From Gammaproteobacteria bacterium (GTDB taxonomy: Bacteria > Pseudomonadota > Gammaproteobacteria > Nevskiales > Nevskiaceae): a stretch of 64,000 bases of DNA. The stretch's first letter is position 1; every line of letters starts with the position of its first letter. The stretch is from assembly GCA_026398815.1 (NCBI GenBank), contig JAPLSA010000026.1:62001-126000 (forward strand). Reading direction: 5' to 3'. The position numbers and the translations under genes are program-made. This document shows, in pieces, positions 53,832 through 62,171 of the stretch. A model generated the notes under the pieces. It was not told the origin of the DNA. It ran no database searches and saw nothing but the letters and a program-made list of their open reading frames with translations.

Positions 53832-55631
53832 TCAGGCCATCAGCTGCAGGCTCGCCAGCCGGGCGTAGAGGCCGCCGTTGGCGATCAGCTCGGCCGGCGT
53901 GCCGATCTCGACGATCCTGCCGGCGTCCATCACCACGATGCGGTCGGCGCGCTGCACGGTGGCCAGCCGGTGGGCGATGACGAGGGTGGTGCGGCCGACC
54001 ATCGCCGCTTCCAGGCCGCGCTGGACGTGCTGTTCGCTTTCGGCGTCGAGCGCGCTGGTGGCTTCGTCGAGCAGCAGCAGCGGCGGGTTCTTGAGGATGG
54101 CGCGGGCAATCGCGAGGCGCTGGCGCTGGCCGCCGGACAACCGCAGACCGCGCTCGCCGAGGAAGGTCTGGTAGCCGTCCGGCAGGCGTTCGATGAACTC
54201 GTCGGCGCGCGCGGTGCGGGCGGCGGCGCGCACCTCTTCGTCGCTGGCCGCCGGGTTGCCATAGCGGATGTTGGCGCTCGCGTCGGCGGAGAAGATCACC
54301 GCATCCTGCGGGACGATGCCGATGCGCGACCGCAGTTCCGCCGGGTCGAGATCGCGCAGGTCCACGCCGTTGAACAGGATCGCCCCGCTGCTGGCATCGT
54401 GGAAGCGCAGCAGCAGCTGGAACAGCGTGGTCTTGCCGGCGCCGCTGGGGCCGACCACCGCCACCGTCTCGCCTTCGCGGATGTCGAGCTGGATGTCATC
54501 GAGCGCCAGCACGTCCGGGCGCGACGGGTAGCGGAAGCCGAGGTGGCGGAATTCGACGCGCGCCAGGCGCGAATCGGGCAGCCGCAGCGGCCGGGCCGGT
54601 GGCTGGATCGCGCATTCGGCGTTCAGCAGTTCGACCAGCCGTTCGGTGGCGCCGGCTGCGCGCATCACGTCGCCCCAGACTTCGGCGATCACGCCGACGC
54701 CACCGGCGGTCAGCACCGCGTAGATCACGAACGAGGCCAGCTGGCCGGCGCTCATCGAGCCGGCCGCCACTGCGTGCGCGCCCAGCCACAGCACGAAGAC
54801 GATGGCGCCGAACACGCCGCCGATCACGGCGGCCGTCATCAGCGCGCGCAGCCGGGTGCGGCGGATCGCGGCGGCGAAGCCGGATTCGACGGTGCGGTCG
54901 TAGCGCGCCGACTCCGCGCCTTCCTGGGTGAAGGCCTGCACGGTCGGCACCGCGTTGAGGATTTCCCCGGCCACCGCCGAGGTGTCGGCGATCCGGTCCT
55001 GGGCGTCGCGCGATACCCGGCGCACGGCCCGGCCAATTGCCACCAGCGGCACCACCACGGCGGCCAGCAGCACGATGGTGATCGCGAACAGGCGCGGGCT
55101 GGTGACGCCGAGCATCACCAGCCCGCCGACGAACTGCAGGAAGCTGCGCAGCCCCATCGACACCGACGAGCCGACCACCGTCTGCACCAGCGTGGTGTCG
55201 CCGGTCAGCCGCGACAGCACTTCGCCGGTGCGGGTGGTTTCGAAGTAGGCCGGCGCCTGCTGCAGCATCCGCCGGTAGACGGCGCTACGCAGGTCGGCGG
55301 TCACCCGCTCGCCGATCCACGACACGAAGTAGTAGCGCGCCGCCGTTGCCAGCGCCCAGAACAGCGCCAGCGCGCCAAGCGCCAGGAAGTGGCCGTTGAT
55401 GTCGCCGCGCGTGGCGTTGGCGACGAAGCCCTTGTCGATCAGGTCGCGGAAGGCGATCGGCACCACCAGCATCGCCGCCGAGCTGAACACCAGCATCACC
55501 GTCGCCAGCGCCAGATAGCGCCGGTACGGCCGCATGAACGGCAACAGGCCGGCCAGCGCCGACAGCTTGCGCGGCGACTTCGAGCCGGCGGGTTCGCGGG
55601 CAGGGGCGGAATCGGATACGAGTGCGGTCAT
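53832..55631 (-). CDS. ABC exporter half-transporter (MsbA-like)
   Basis: 599 aa with six membrane helices (about residues 25-310) fused to one nucleotide-binding domain: Walker A GPSGAGKTTL, Q-loop VPQDAVIF, signature LSGGQRQRLAIARAIL, Walker B LLLDEATSALD, and switch His in IAHRLATV. The homodimeric exporter fold resembles MsbA or multidrug exporters; the substrate is not predictable. ATG 55631 is preferred to the extension at 55664. Divergent from the photolyase-like gene with 127 bp between. Confidence 0.9.
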   Translation of the reverse strand: MTALVSDSAPAREPAGSKSPRKLSALAGLLPFMRPYRRYLALATVMLVFSSAAMLVVPIAFRDLIDKGFVANATRGDINGHFLALGALALFWALATAARYYFVSWIGERVTADLRSAVYRRMLQQAPAYFETTRTGEVLSRLTGDTTLVQTVVGSSVSMGLRSFLQFVGGLVMLGVTSPRLFAITIVLLAAVVVPLVAIGRAVRRVSRDAQDRIADTSAVAGEILNAVPTVQAFTQEGAESARYDRTVESGFAAAIRRTRLRALMTAAVIGGVFGAIVFVLWLGAHAVAAGSMSAGQLASFVIYAVLTAGGVGVIAEVWGDVMRAAGATERLVELLNAECAIQPPARPLRLPDSRLARVEFRHLGFRYPSRPDVLALDDIQLDIREGETVAVVGPSGAGKTTLFQLLLRFHDASSGAILFNGVDLRDLDPAELRSRIGIVPQDAVIFSADASANIRYGNPAASDEEVRAAARTARADEFIERLPDGYQTFLGERGLRLSGGQRQRLAIARAILKNPPLLLLDEATSALDAESEQHVQRGLEAAMVGRTTLVIAHRLATVQRADRIVVMDAGRIVEIGTPAELIANGGLYARLASLQLMA

Positions 55632-55758: not shown

Positions 55759-56982
55759 ATGCCGAACTTCCCGCCCAGCCGCGCCGATGCGCTGGCCCGG
55801 CTGGCCGCCTTCCTGCCGCGCGCCGGCGCCCACTACGCCAATGAACGCAATGCCGATCGCGGTCCGGCGGCGCGCGACAACGTGTCGCTGCTGTCGCCTG
55901 CGGTGCGTCACCGGCTGATCAGCGAAGCCGAGATCGCCGCCGCCGTGCTCGATCGCTACGCGTTCTCGACCAGCGAGAAATTCATCCAGGAAGTCTGCTG
56001 GCGCAGCTACTGGAAAGGCTGGCTGGAGCTGCGGCCGCAGGTCTGGGCCGACTACCAGGCGGCGCTGTCGGTGCAGATCGAGCGGATCGGCGACGGGCCC
56101 GGCGTCGACCGGCCTTTCCGCAAACGCTGGCAGGCGGCGGTCGACGGCGCCACCGGCATCGCCTGCTTCGACGACTGGGTCGAGGAACTGCGCAGCACCG
56201 GCTACCTGCACAACCACACGCGGATGTGGTTCGCCTCGATCTGGATCTTCACGCTGAACCTGCCGTGGGTGCTCGGTGCGGACTTTTTCTACCGGCACCT
56301 GCTGGATGGCGATCCGGCCTCGAACACGCTCAGCTGGCGCTGGGTCGCCGGCCTGCAGACGCGCGGCAAGCATTACCTGGCGCGCGCCGACAACATCCAG
56401 AAGTACACCGCGAACCGCTACTGGCCGAAAGGCGAGCTGAACGAGGACGCCGCGCCGCTGCCGCCGGACGAGCTGCCGGCGGCCGGCCGGATCGCCGACC
56501 TGCCGCCGCCGAAAGCGGGCCTGCGCACGGCGCTCTGGCTGCACGAGGACGATCTCTGCGCCGAATCCTGGCCGGCGCTGGCCGGGCTCGACGTGGTGGC
56601 GATCGGCGGCGACGTGACGCCGGCGGCGCGCAGCCGCCTGCCGGTCAGCGAGGCGGTGACCGGCTGGACCGAAGCCGCGCTGGCCGATGGCCTGGACCGC
56701 GCCGGCCGCCATTTCGGCCTGCCGGCAGTCCGCATCACCCCCAGCCAGCGGCACCGCTGGCTGGAGGATCACCGCATCGAGCAGCTGGTGACCGCCTATC
56801 CGACCGTCGGCCCGGTAGCCGAGACCGTTGCCGCGCTGGAACGCGAGCTGGCGGCGCGCGGCATCGCGCTGATCCGCGTCCGCCGCGCCTGGGACACGGC
56901 GTTCTGGCCGCATGCCGGGAAGGGCTTTTTCCAGCTGCGCGAGAAGATCCGGCCGCTGCTGGCCGAGCTCGGCATTCCCTGA
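55759..56982 (+). CDS. Photolyase/cryptochrome-family protein with domains in permuted order
   Basis: 407 aa. Residues about 55-225 are clearly the helical FAD-binding domain of photolyases: STSEKFIQEVCWRSYW, DDWVEELRSTGYLHNHTRMW, then the NLPWVLGADFFYRHLLDGD and SNTLSWRWVAGLQTRGKHYLA segments. Only about 50 residues precede it, too few for the usual N-terminal alpha/beta domain. Instead residues about 245-407 look like that domain (TALWLHEDDL, LDVVAIGG, DGLDRAGRHFGLPAVRI, AFWPHAGKGFFQLREKI). The order therefore appears FAD domain first, alpha/beta domain second. DNA repair or light sensing is possible. Confidence 0.78.
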   Translation: MPNFPPSRADALARLAAFLPRAGAHYANERNADRGPAARDNVSLLSPAVRHRLISEAEIAAAVLDRYAFSTSEKFIQEVCWRSYWKGWLELRPQVWADYQAALSVQIERIGDGPGVDRPFRKRWQAAVDGATGIACFDDWVEELRSTGYLHNHTRMWFASIWIFTLNLPWVLGADFFYRHLLDGDPASNTLSWRWVAGLQTRGKHYLARADNIQKYTANRYWPKGELNEDAAPLPPDELPAAGRIADLPPPKAGLRTALWLHEDDLCAESWPALAGLDVVAIGGDVTPAARSRLPVSEAVTGWTEAALADGLDRAGRHFGLPAVRITPSQRHRWLEDHRIEQLVTAYPTVGPVAETVAALERELAARGIALIRVRRAWDTAFWPHAGKGFFQLREKIRPLLAELGIP

Positions 56983-57128: not shown

Positions 57129-57815
57129 ATGCCGTCTCCCGACTTTGCGCAGTTTGGTGCCGCGTCGCTCGAACAGAAGGACCTGCTGTTCCTGTTCGAG
57201 CATTTCCCGGTGCCCGGTACCGACGCCGTGGATGCCGCACGACGGGTGATCGAGCAGCCCAGCACGCTGGAATCGCTGCTCGAAAGCCGCTACGTGCAGG
57301 ACGCCATGCTCGACCCGGACAGCGCCTGGGTGAACGTGTCGCCCAAGCTCTACTTCAACGTGATGCTGCGCCGGGCCCTGGCCGGCCGCCGGGATTCCGG
57401 CGAGCGGCGCACCATCCACTACCTCGCCAATCTGCTGGCGCTGTATGCCAGCAACGAGCGCCTGCATCACGTGCAGAGCGGCGAGGCGGAAAGCTACGAC
57501 TATCTCGTCGACCTGGTGCAGGCGGCGCGCGATGCCCACCATGCGCGGCGCTTCCTGGTGCTGAGCCAGATCGGCAACTACGCGCTGTTCCTGGCCGGCT
57601 GGTGCGCGCCGTGGATCGAGCACCGCCGCCGCTATCACCACCGGCCGCTGGGGCTCGACTACTACTGCAACATGAGCCGCAGCCATTTCGCTTCGGCCGC
57701 CCGCCACGATCTTGCCGATGCCTACGGCCTGAAGCCGGTGTTCGCCCAGCTGGCGCTGCGCTTCGACTACTACCGCGACGGCATTGAGCGGATGGCCGGC
57801 GAACGGCTGCACTGA
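57129..57815 (+). CDS. Conserved-looking hypothetical protein
   Basis: 228 aa; I do not recognise the family. It is mostly helical and rich in Arg, Tyr and His, with no signal peptide. One semi-hydrophobic stretch (about residues 138-155, LVLSQIGNYALFLAGWCAPW) is flanked by Arg/His, so a membrane-associated helix is possible. The C-terminal part carries YYCNMSRSHFASAARHDLADAYGL. GGAGG at 57118-57122 gives a good ribosome site. It lies between the photolyase-like gene and glyoxalase I, all on plus, but with its own upstream gap containing an inverted repeat. Confidence 0.75.
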   Translation: MPSPDFAQFGAASLEQKDLLFLFEHFPVPGTDAVDAARRVIEQPSTLESLLESRYVQDAMLDPDSAWVNVSPKLYFNVMLRRALAGRRDSGERRTIHYLANLLALYASNERLHHVQSGEAESYDYLVDLVQAARDAHHARRFLVLSQIGNYALFLAGWCAPWIEHRRRYHHRPLGLDYYCNMSRSHFASAARHDLADAYGLKPVFAQLALRFDYYRDGIERMAGERLH

Positions 57816-61175: not shown

Positions 61176-62171
61176 TCAGGCGGCTTCGGCCAGGACGGCC
61201 GTCTTCTCAGTGCCGAGCAGGCGCCGCATCCAGGCGGCGTCGACCGCGCGCGGGCGCAGCCGCAGCTGATCGAAGCGGCCGTTGCGGATGGCGCGCTTGA
61301 TCCGTTGAAGGTTGTCGTGGATGGCATCGGTATACGGATTCGGCGCGCCGAGGCGATCGCCGAAATGCACGCTGAAATAGCGGTGGATGCCGCCGAAGTA
61401 GCCGTCCAGCCGCTCCTGCCAGATGCGTGCGTTGAACTGCGGGGTGCCGCGCATCAGCACGTCGACATCGGCGTACAGCGGCGTCGGACCGCCGGGCTGG
61501 ACAGCGCCGGCCAGCCCGGCGACCTGGAATTCCGGATAGAGGAAATCGCGGCACTTCTCGAGATAGCAGCGATCGGCGGTCTGCACGATCAGGTCGCTGC
61601 TGGCGATCATGAAGCCGAGCGCGCGGTCGGCCGGGTCGCTGACCTCGATCGTGTCGAGCGCCCGTTCGTAGCCGGTGAAATGCACCAGCCGGGCGGCCAG
61701 CGGCGCGTCGTCGGCAAAGCCCAGCGACGGCAGAATGCGCAGCAGGAACTCGCTGCTGCGCTGCACGTGGCTCAACGTGTAGGCGGCGCCATTGCTGGCG
61801 CGATCGCCGCTGCGGCGGATGTAGCCGGCATCGTGGAACAGGGCGATCAGCACACCGAGCATGGCCCGGCGCGGGCTGATGCGGGCCGCCGCCGGCATCG
61901 CGCGGTTGTAGCCGTCGATCAGCCTTGCGGTGCCCAGCGTGCAGTCCAGGCTGTGCTGGGCGTCGTGATACGGGGTGTCGGCCGCCGCGTAGCCGGGCAG
62001 CAGGCCGGCGTGCAGCTCGGTGAAACGGCGGAACCCGGCGCGCAGCTCGGCGGTATCGGCGCGGCCACCCTGCGAGTTGAGCAGACGGACGACCTCGTCG
62101 AGCACGTCCGACGGGCTCGCGATGCAGATCTGGTTGGTGACGTCGTAGTGGTTGCGCCGGCGCGATTGCAT
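61176..62171 (-). CDS. HD-domain phosphohydrolase resembling class I cyclic-nucleotide phosphodiesterases
   Basis: 331-aa cytoplasmic protein. Y68-H69-D-A-Q-H73-S-L-D76 recalls the YHNxxHAxDV signature of eukaryotic-type 3',5'-cyclic nucleotide phosphodiesterases, followed by a second HD at H113-D114 (ALFHDAGY) and a later SSDLIVQTAD that can supply the last metal Asp. The family is helical and metal dependent. ATG 62171 or an upstream in-frame start at 62204 are both possible. The substrate is not established. Confidence 0.75.
   Translation of the reverse strand: MQSRRRNHYDVTNQICIASPSDVLDEVVRLLNSQGGRADTAELRAGFRRFTELHAGLLPGYAAADTPYHDAQHSLDCTLGTARLIDGYNRAMPAAARISPRRAMLGVLIALFHDAGYIRRSGDRASNGAAYTLSHVQRSSEFLLRILPSLGFADDAPLAARLVHFTGYERALDTIEVSDPADRALGFMIASSDLIVQTADRCYLEKCRDFLYPEFQVAGLAGAVQPGGPTPLYADVDVLMRGTPQFNARIWQERLDGYFGGIHRYFSVHFGDRLGAPNPYTDAIHDNLQRIKRAIRNGRFDQLRLRPRAVDAAWMRRLLGTEKTAVLAEAA

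Follow-up and report, generated by a model that had tools for sequence, protein, structure and literature searches.

The 64,000-nucleotide window examined here (positions 62,001 to 126,000 of contig JAPLSA010000026.1, from assembly GCA_026398815.1 of a gammaproteobacterium of the Nevskiaceae) contains a gene on the forward strand that very probably encodes a photolyase of the NewPHL type, a class called Phr7 in picocyanobacteria and SPL in some papers. The open reading frame (ORF) opens with an ATG at 55759, closes with a stop codon at 56980-56982 (55759..56982, stop included) and specifies 407 amino acids, with the same bounds as those given in an initial annotation, which had described the product as photolyase/cryptochrome-like and apparently circularly permuted. 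An alternative in-frame start at 55534 would produce a longer ORF overlapping the divergent gene of an ABC transporter; because the starts of related genes fit 55759, the latter was taken as the start. Each of the 80 best relatives carries a single open ORF of 383-430 amino acids at its locus (80/80), and the window gene is therefore neither a chance reading frame nor an assembly fault. No sigma-70-like site was found at the gene, and two terminator-like sites, both inside the ORF, were given no weight.

Relatives, defined as matches at E < 1e-20, were sought in 61 genomes, comprising that of the window and 60 related ones. Full-length relatives are present in 12 of these: the window genome, seven of the same genus (70-84% identity) and four more distant (47-52%). 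Of 597 candidate stretches in a wider genome collection, at least 587 contain the gene for a relative, and the best 80 of them were analyzed. To judge by record titles, without a tally, they come from Alphaproteobacteria (e.g., Rhodobacteraceae, Roseomonas, Methylobacterium), Microbacteriaceae and others. The best 80 all show the layout proposed for the window protein, with a flavin adenine dinucleotide (FAD) domain first and an alpha/beta domain second. The alignment to which the residue counts below refer has 79 sequences: the window protein, six loci from related genomes and 72 of the 80 best relatives, eight being left out. A Methylobacterium metagenome-assembled genome (MAG) encodes a full-length match of 55% identity together with a second, partial match of 35% over residues 4-206; Methylobacterium is the genus of one characterized NewPHL enzyme. 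Among eight plasmid records with full-length matches, six annotate the gene as "FAD-binding domain-containing protein" and two list no gene.

An AlphaFold2 model built on the 79-row alignment reached a mean pLDDT of 97.1 and a pTM of 0.94 (pLDDT 69.7 when only 12 sequences were supplied). The chain begins with a helical domain, with helices spanning residues 8-216, and continues into an alpha/beta domain of five strands (256-262, 278-284, 323-325, 342-346 and 370-374), the later of them separated by helices, which bears out the order read from the sequence in the initial annotation.

The N-terminal FAD-binding, catalytic domain occupies residues 1-237 (55759..56469, + strand). Pfam FAD_binding_7 (PF03441) matches residues 75-209 with an E value of 1.2e-19 over model positions 1-128 of 203, suggesting that the domain either lacks the far end of its usual form or has diverged too much there to be recognized. 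Four NCBIfam photolyase/cryptochrome models also hit within residues 3-227, all far under their cut-offs, and direct sequence comparison of the domain with a type I photolyase gave an E value of 1.8e-13. With YANERN and SLLSP both inside residues 26-47 and the first FAD-domain helix already at residue 8, the early position claimed for the FAD motifs is correct. Structural comparison agrees with this assignment: model residues 1-232 match 2j4d with Z 17.6 and E. coli PhrB (1dnp) with Z 17.1. Among the 50 PDB structures listed (Z 15.0-17.6, covering model residues 1 to about 237), 49 are photolyases or cryptochromes by description, the remaining one being the chain of a trypanosome mitoribosome intermediate, and all 30 Foldseek hits at E <= 0.001 are described as photolyases or cryptochromes. 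BFVD returned some short viral photolyase proteins without residue ranges, and these were not used as evidence.

Nine residues of this domain, E78, W81, N152, M156, W170, D183, N189, W193 and W195, are invariant in all 79 aligned members. Four of them can be placed in the photolyase scheme: E78 (55990..55992) occupies the column of the catalytic glutamate, N189 (56323..56325) that of the flavin-contacting asparagine, and W170 (56266..56268) and W193 (56335..56337) would be the distal and proximal tryptophans of a dyad, all on the + strand. We take the corresponding E. coli PhrB positions, mapped through the alignment, to be E274, W277, N341, M345, W359, N378 and W382, with E78 pairing with E274, W170 with W359, N189 with N378 and W193 with W382. 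Tryptophan occurs in more than 30 of the 79 members only at columns where the window protein itself has one, and the region of the canonical third tryptophan aligns to window residues without tryptophan. Since W170 and W193 are present in every member and no column beyond the window protein's own tryptophans exceeds 30, the arrangement appears to fit a dyad in place of a triad. The available text of PMC8948257 attributes such a dyad to the NewPHL of D. shibae, and that of PMC12083526 describes the flavin asparagine as conserved in NewPHL as well.

The C-terminal half is less easily classified. It comprises the alpha/beta domain, or Z-domain, at residues 255-374 (56521..56880, + strand), and the best-conserved stretch of this half, the motif RxxWDxxxWPHAxxGFFxFK within residues 376-407 (56884..56979, + strand), in which D379 is kept in 78/79 members, W383 in 77/79 and P384 in 78/79. 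Pfam does not report the photolyase antenna domain PF00875 in the window protein, and neither Pfam nor NCBIfam has a family that hits the last 170 residues at E <= 10. Profiles were compared pairwise with hhalign, the P values being those of single comparisons. The profile of the 79 C-terminal domains, set against 84 diverse PF00875 domains from the collected loci, scored 41.7 (P 4.5e-6, probability 87%); the alignment, of 121 columns, is a single collinear run that leads from strand one (LWLHEDDLCAESWPAL opposite VWFRRDLRLADNPAL) to strand five. With the same query, the control profiles scored 22.2 (Usp), 18.6 (B12-binding), 12.3 (response regulator) and 12.9 (canonical FAD domain), the Usp control set leaving out 5 of its 30 loci and the response-regulator set 1 of its 30, and the top score of 100 column shuffles was 19.6. 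The antenna-like segment suspected in the initial annotation thus does resemble an antenna domain at the profile level, above all three alpha/beta controls. As a yardstick, photolyase antenna domains scored 41.0 against Usp, a superfamily relative of the photolyase antenna domain. The second type of photolyase antenna domain tried, PF04244, scored 17.1 (P 0.065), a value that its own shuffles also reach (top 20.1), which makes PF00875, and not PF04244, the type that the C-terminal domain resembles.

Several results would instead suit an unrelated Rossmann-like domain fused to an FAD-domain protein, in which case no permutation would have taken place. Pfam run on each member found PF00875 in 1/79 only (E 0.014) and BLH_phosphatase in 4/79 (best E 0.00036), and a 48-domain C-terminal profile searched against the PDB retrieved five sequences at E <= 10, the best being BdcA (E 0.0035), and no photolyase. 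Narrower photolyase sets weaken the match, to P 0.00022 with 61 domains and P 0.0062 with class I domains only (a set excluding the ORFs L096 and L108), and the 48-sequence alignment against class I domains gave P 0.038. When 20 members were run singly, the photolyase profile exceeded all three controls in 15, one of these by 0.1, and failed to do so in five. Against such a fusion stand the PF00875 score itself, with its collinear columns and its distance from controls and shuffles, and a group of proteins from Deinococcus that resemble both sides of the comparison. We consider an unrelated domain improbable.

These Deinococcus proteins, and a pair from Persicobacter, are plasmid-encoded and match the window protein in the FAD domain only; their genes are likewise FAD-domain-first. 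Three of the Deinococcus proteins (L127, L306 and L307) have 456-472 amino acids and are annotated merely as FAD-binding domain-containing protein. On the Deinococcus sp. QL22 plasmid NZ_CP097153.1 (L308:1315-2606), the FAD part and the alpha/beta part are encoded in that order by two genes overlapping by 4 bases, the latter annotated as hypothetical; the gene pair resembles phr4/phr5 of marine Synechococcus. With the two QL22 genes joined by hand into one row, the four-protein Deinococcus profile matched antenna domains with P 8.9e-12 over 135 columns, up to the FTPF joint region, at a score of 72.2 versus 28.1 for Usp, 23.2 for B12-binding and 15.8 for response regulator controls. Taken singly, the C-terminal part of one of these proteins matched antenna domains with P 3.6e-9. 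Toward the NewPHL C-terminal domain, the Deinococcus set gave P 2e-6 (4.6e-5 in the reverse direction), and a six-protein inverted set P 1.6e-7 over 136 columns. The Persicobacter pair alone was not convincing, with P 0.0092 to antenna domains and 0.055 to NewPHL. The two Persicobacter proteins (L309 and L310) are FAD-domain-first; in both, the C-terminal part is short and finishes with SFFAFWKK or SFFAYWKK, and the Deinococcus-type cysteine set is missing.

Because the Z-domain matches PF00875 directly and the Deinococcus inverted proteins link the two, we identify it with fair confidence, by profile comparison, as a divergent photolyase antenna domain and the order as truly swapped. The circular permutation proposed at the outset is accordingly upheld at the level of whole domains: the order of the two is inverted, the C-terminal half appears to be a photolyase alpha/beta domain with no change to its internal order, and "domain-level circular permutation" is a supported and fair description. 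The same proposal had pointed to FFQLREKI near the end of the chain as a sequence normally found at the joint between the canonical domains. The string is indeed present, at residues 390-397, but the direct alignment to canonical domains ends before the motif, so that an echo of the canonical joint is plausible at most. Similar sequences lie near the C-terminal end of other inverted proteins (TKFFGFWKRV in Deinococcus QL22, SFFAFWKK in Persicobacter), and the alignment between the six-protein inverted set and the NewPHL profile extends as far as column 158 of 178. A literature search pairing photolyase with "circular permutation" returned neither term in any title or abstract found. PMC9426592 was the sole paper found to use the wording "Z-domain", and we do not claim the homology of Z-domain and antenna domain as unpublished.

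A trace of the inverted iron-sulfur (Fe-S) photolyases may persist in the FAD domain. The Deinococcus proteins carry four cysteines spaced by 85, 3 and 7 residues in the three single-gene proteins and by 85, 3 and 4 in the QL22 pair. In Synechococcus Phr4, C169, C254, C257 and C263 (85, 3, 6) are given as Fe-S cluster residues in the accessible part of PMC9426592. The window protein has cysteines only at 80, 136 and 267. Of these, only C136 (56164..56166, + strand) has a counterpart in the Deinococcus set, where it falls in the column of the leading cysteine; nothing in the window protein corresponds to the remaining three. Cysteine occupies this column in 55/79 NewPHL-type proteins. From its position C136 may be the relic of a lost Fe-S cluster, or, as a lone conserved cysteine, it could serve in another role.

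An unrooted tree of FAD domains was built from 62 rows (23 NewPHL-type, 31 canonical, 7 PF04244-type and 1 Deinococcus). All 23 NewPHL-type rows, including those of Ruegeria sp. TM1040 and the Methylobacterium MAG, fall on one side of a branch (support 91/97, 88% of 200 bootstraps), and the lone Deinococcus row lies outside all groups on a long branch. Bootstrap support was unsettled and long branches meet, and thus the grouping alone is drawn from this tree. It bears in part on whether the FAD-domain-first form is ancestral to the superfamily, with the canonical photolyases being rearranged: the tree sets the NewPHL rows apart from the canonical ones and, being unrooted, leaves room for such an order of events, although it cannot root them. 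Published proposals place SPL proteins near the root, as far as the available portions of PMC9498864 and PMC9649867 go. The latter also speaks, in the text at hand, of an SPL with an Fe-S cluster, and elsewhere the SPL label may take in more than the NewPHL class. The lone cysteine in the first Fe-S-type column looks more like a loss from a four-cysteine ancestor, and we find an ancestral FAD-first form doubtful. Somewhat better, and still tentative, is a history in which NewPHLs, far from being leftovers of the earliest photolyases, are simplified descendants of inverted four-cysteine photolyases such as those of Deinococcus and the picocyanobacterial Phr4/Phr6: the order was swapped once, the Fe-S cluster was lost with a single cysteine left orphaned, and the antenna domain decayed into the Z-domain. 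As for the swap itself, Deinococcus QL22, with its separate FAD and alpha/beta genes, suggests gene separation and re-fusion as a possible route. The useful part of this analysis is that it connects the Z-domain with the inverted proteins of Deinococcus and with the canonical antenna domain; the link matters for the question of an ancestral or a derived origin of NewPHLs, and hence for the start of the photolyase/cryptochrome family. The class is widespread, yet its annotated plasmid copies bear only a generic FAD-binding name.

As a repair enzyme, the window protein would bind FAD in its N-terminal helical domain. Blue light would excite the reduced FADH-, which would donate an electron to a cyclobutane pyrimidine dimer (CPD) flipped into the site and split the dimer, with the W193 and W170 dyad re-reducing the flavin. 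The C-terminal domain would be a shrunken photolyase alpha/beta domain relocated to the other end of the chain, most likely without an antenna dye and covering the FAD pocket instead; in NewPHL proteins the C-terminal domain is reported to seal this pocket. The substrate is likely to be ultraviolet-damaged single-stranded DNA, by analogy with NewPHLs/SPLs, which have an inverted domain topology and repair CPDs in single-stranded DNA according to the available text of PMC13274461 and PMC9426592.

The placement beside the D. shibae and M. mesophilicum enzymes was made by published description; in the tree, the rows that the window protein joins (91/97) are those of the Methylobacterium MAG (L021) and of Ruegeria (L128). 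One point weighs against the assignment as a repair enzyme: the host carries three further photolyase-family genes, and the window gene may therefore be redundant or have turned into a photoreceptor. The four family members found in all include, besides the window gene, a class I-like protein under every NCBIfam cut-off (C28, L117), a PF00875 plus PF03441 protein (C20, L095) and a PF04244 protein (C25, L210). If these three covered repair, the window protein could sense light in the manner of a cryptochrome instead of repairing DNA. Against this, E78, W81, N152 and M156, at the repair site, are kept throughout the 79 members, the published relatives repair CPDs, and no conserved partner gene accompanies the locus, all of which makes a sensor very improbable. 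Two of the neighbors, an ABC transporter and an ammonium transporter, lie on the opposite strand; the other two are a Pfam-less protein and a glyoxalase-family protein. With thresholds of E <= 1e-15 and flanks of at most 6 kb, these four were found only in 3 same-genus loci of 80, two or three per neighbor; as no neighbor is kept beyond the genus, the gene seems to stand alone. A 228-amino-acid protein without a Pfam match is encoded downstream (57129-57815), with counterparts of 86-95% identity in the same place in three same-genus loci.

A comparison of the window protein with described photolyase types shows where a repair enzyme of the NewPHL type belongs among them. Class I CPD photolyases such as E. 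coli PhrB share the FAD-domain fold and the active-site residues, but they have an N-terminal antenna domain, a full FAD domain and a tryptophan triad; this class was ruled out by the lack of an N-terminal PF00875 and by an FAD-domain helix already at residue 8. DASH cryptochromes such as 2j4d likewise have the FAD-domain fold in common with the window protein and act on single-stranded DNA, as is expected of the window protein, but their order is conventional, and DASH (TIGR02765) was ruled out with 60.2 bits against a cut-off of 317.05. The inverted Fe-S photolyases Phr4/Phr5 and Phr6 of picocyanobacteria, as the available text of PMC9426592 describes them, have the FAD domain first, as the window protein does. 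So do the Deinococcus proteins, whose C-terminal domain aligns with that of NewPHL and is a clearer antenna domain than the Z-domain of the window protein. Both groups have four cysteines whereas the window protein keeps one, and a Phr4/5/6-type enzyme was ruled out on this count. The NewPHL class, reportedly founded on the description of Emmerich et al. 2020 (NAR 48:12845), is the closest counterpart. An N-terminal FAD domain, a C-terminal Z-domain, a tryptophan dyad and the lack of an Fe-S cysteine set are shared with the window protein, judging from the available portions of PMC13274461, PMC9426592 and PMC8948257. In a comparison by published description no difference between the two was found, and the window gene seems to be an unexceptional representative of a class known since 2020.
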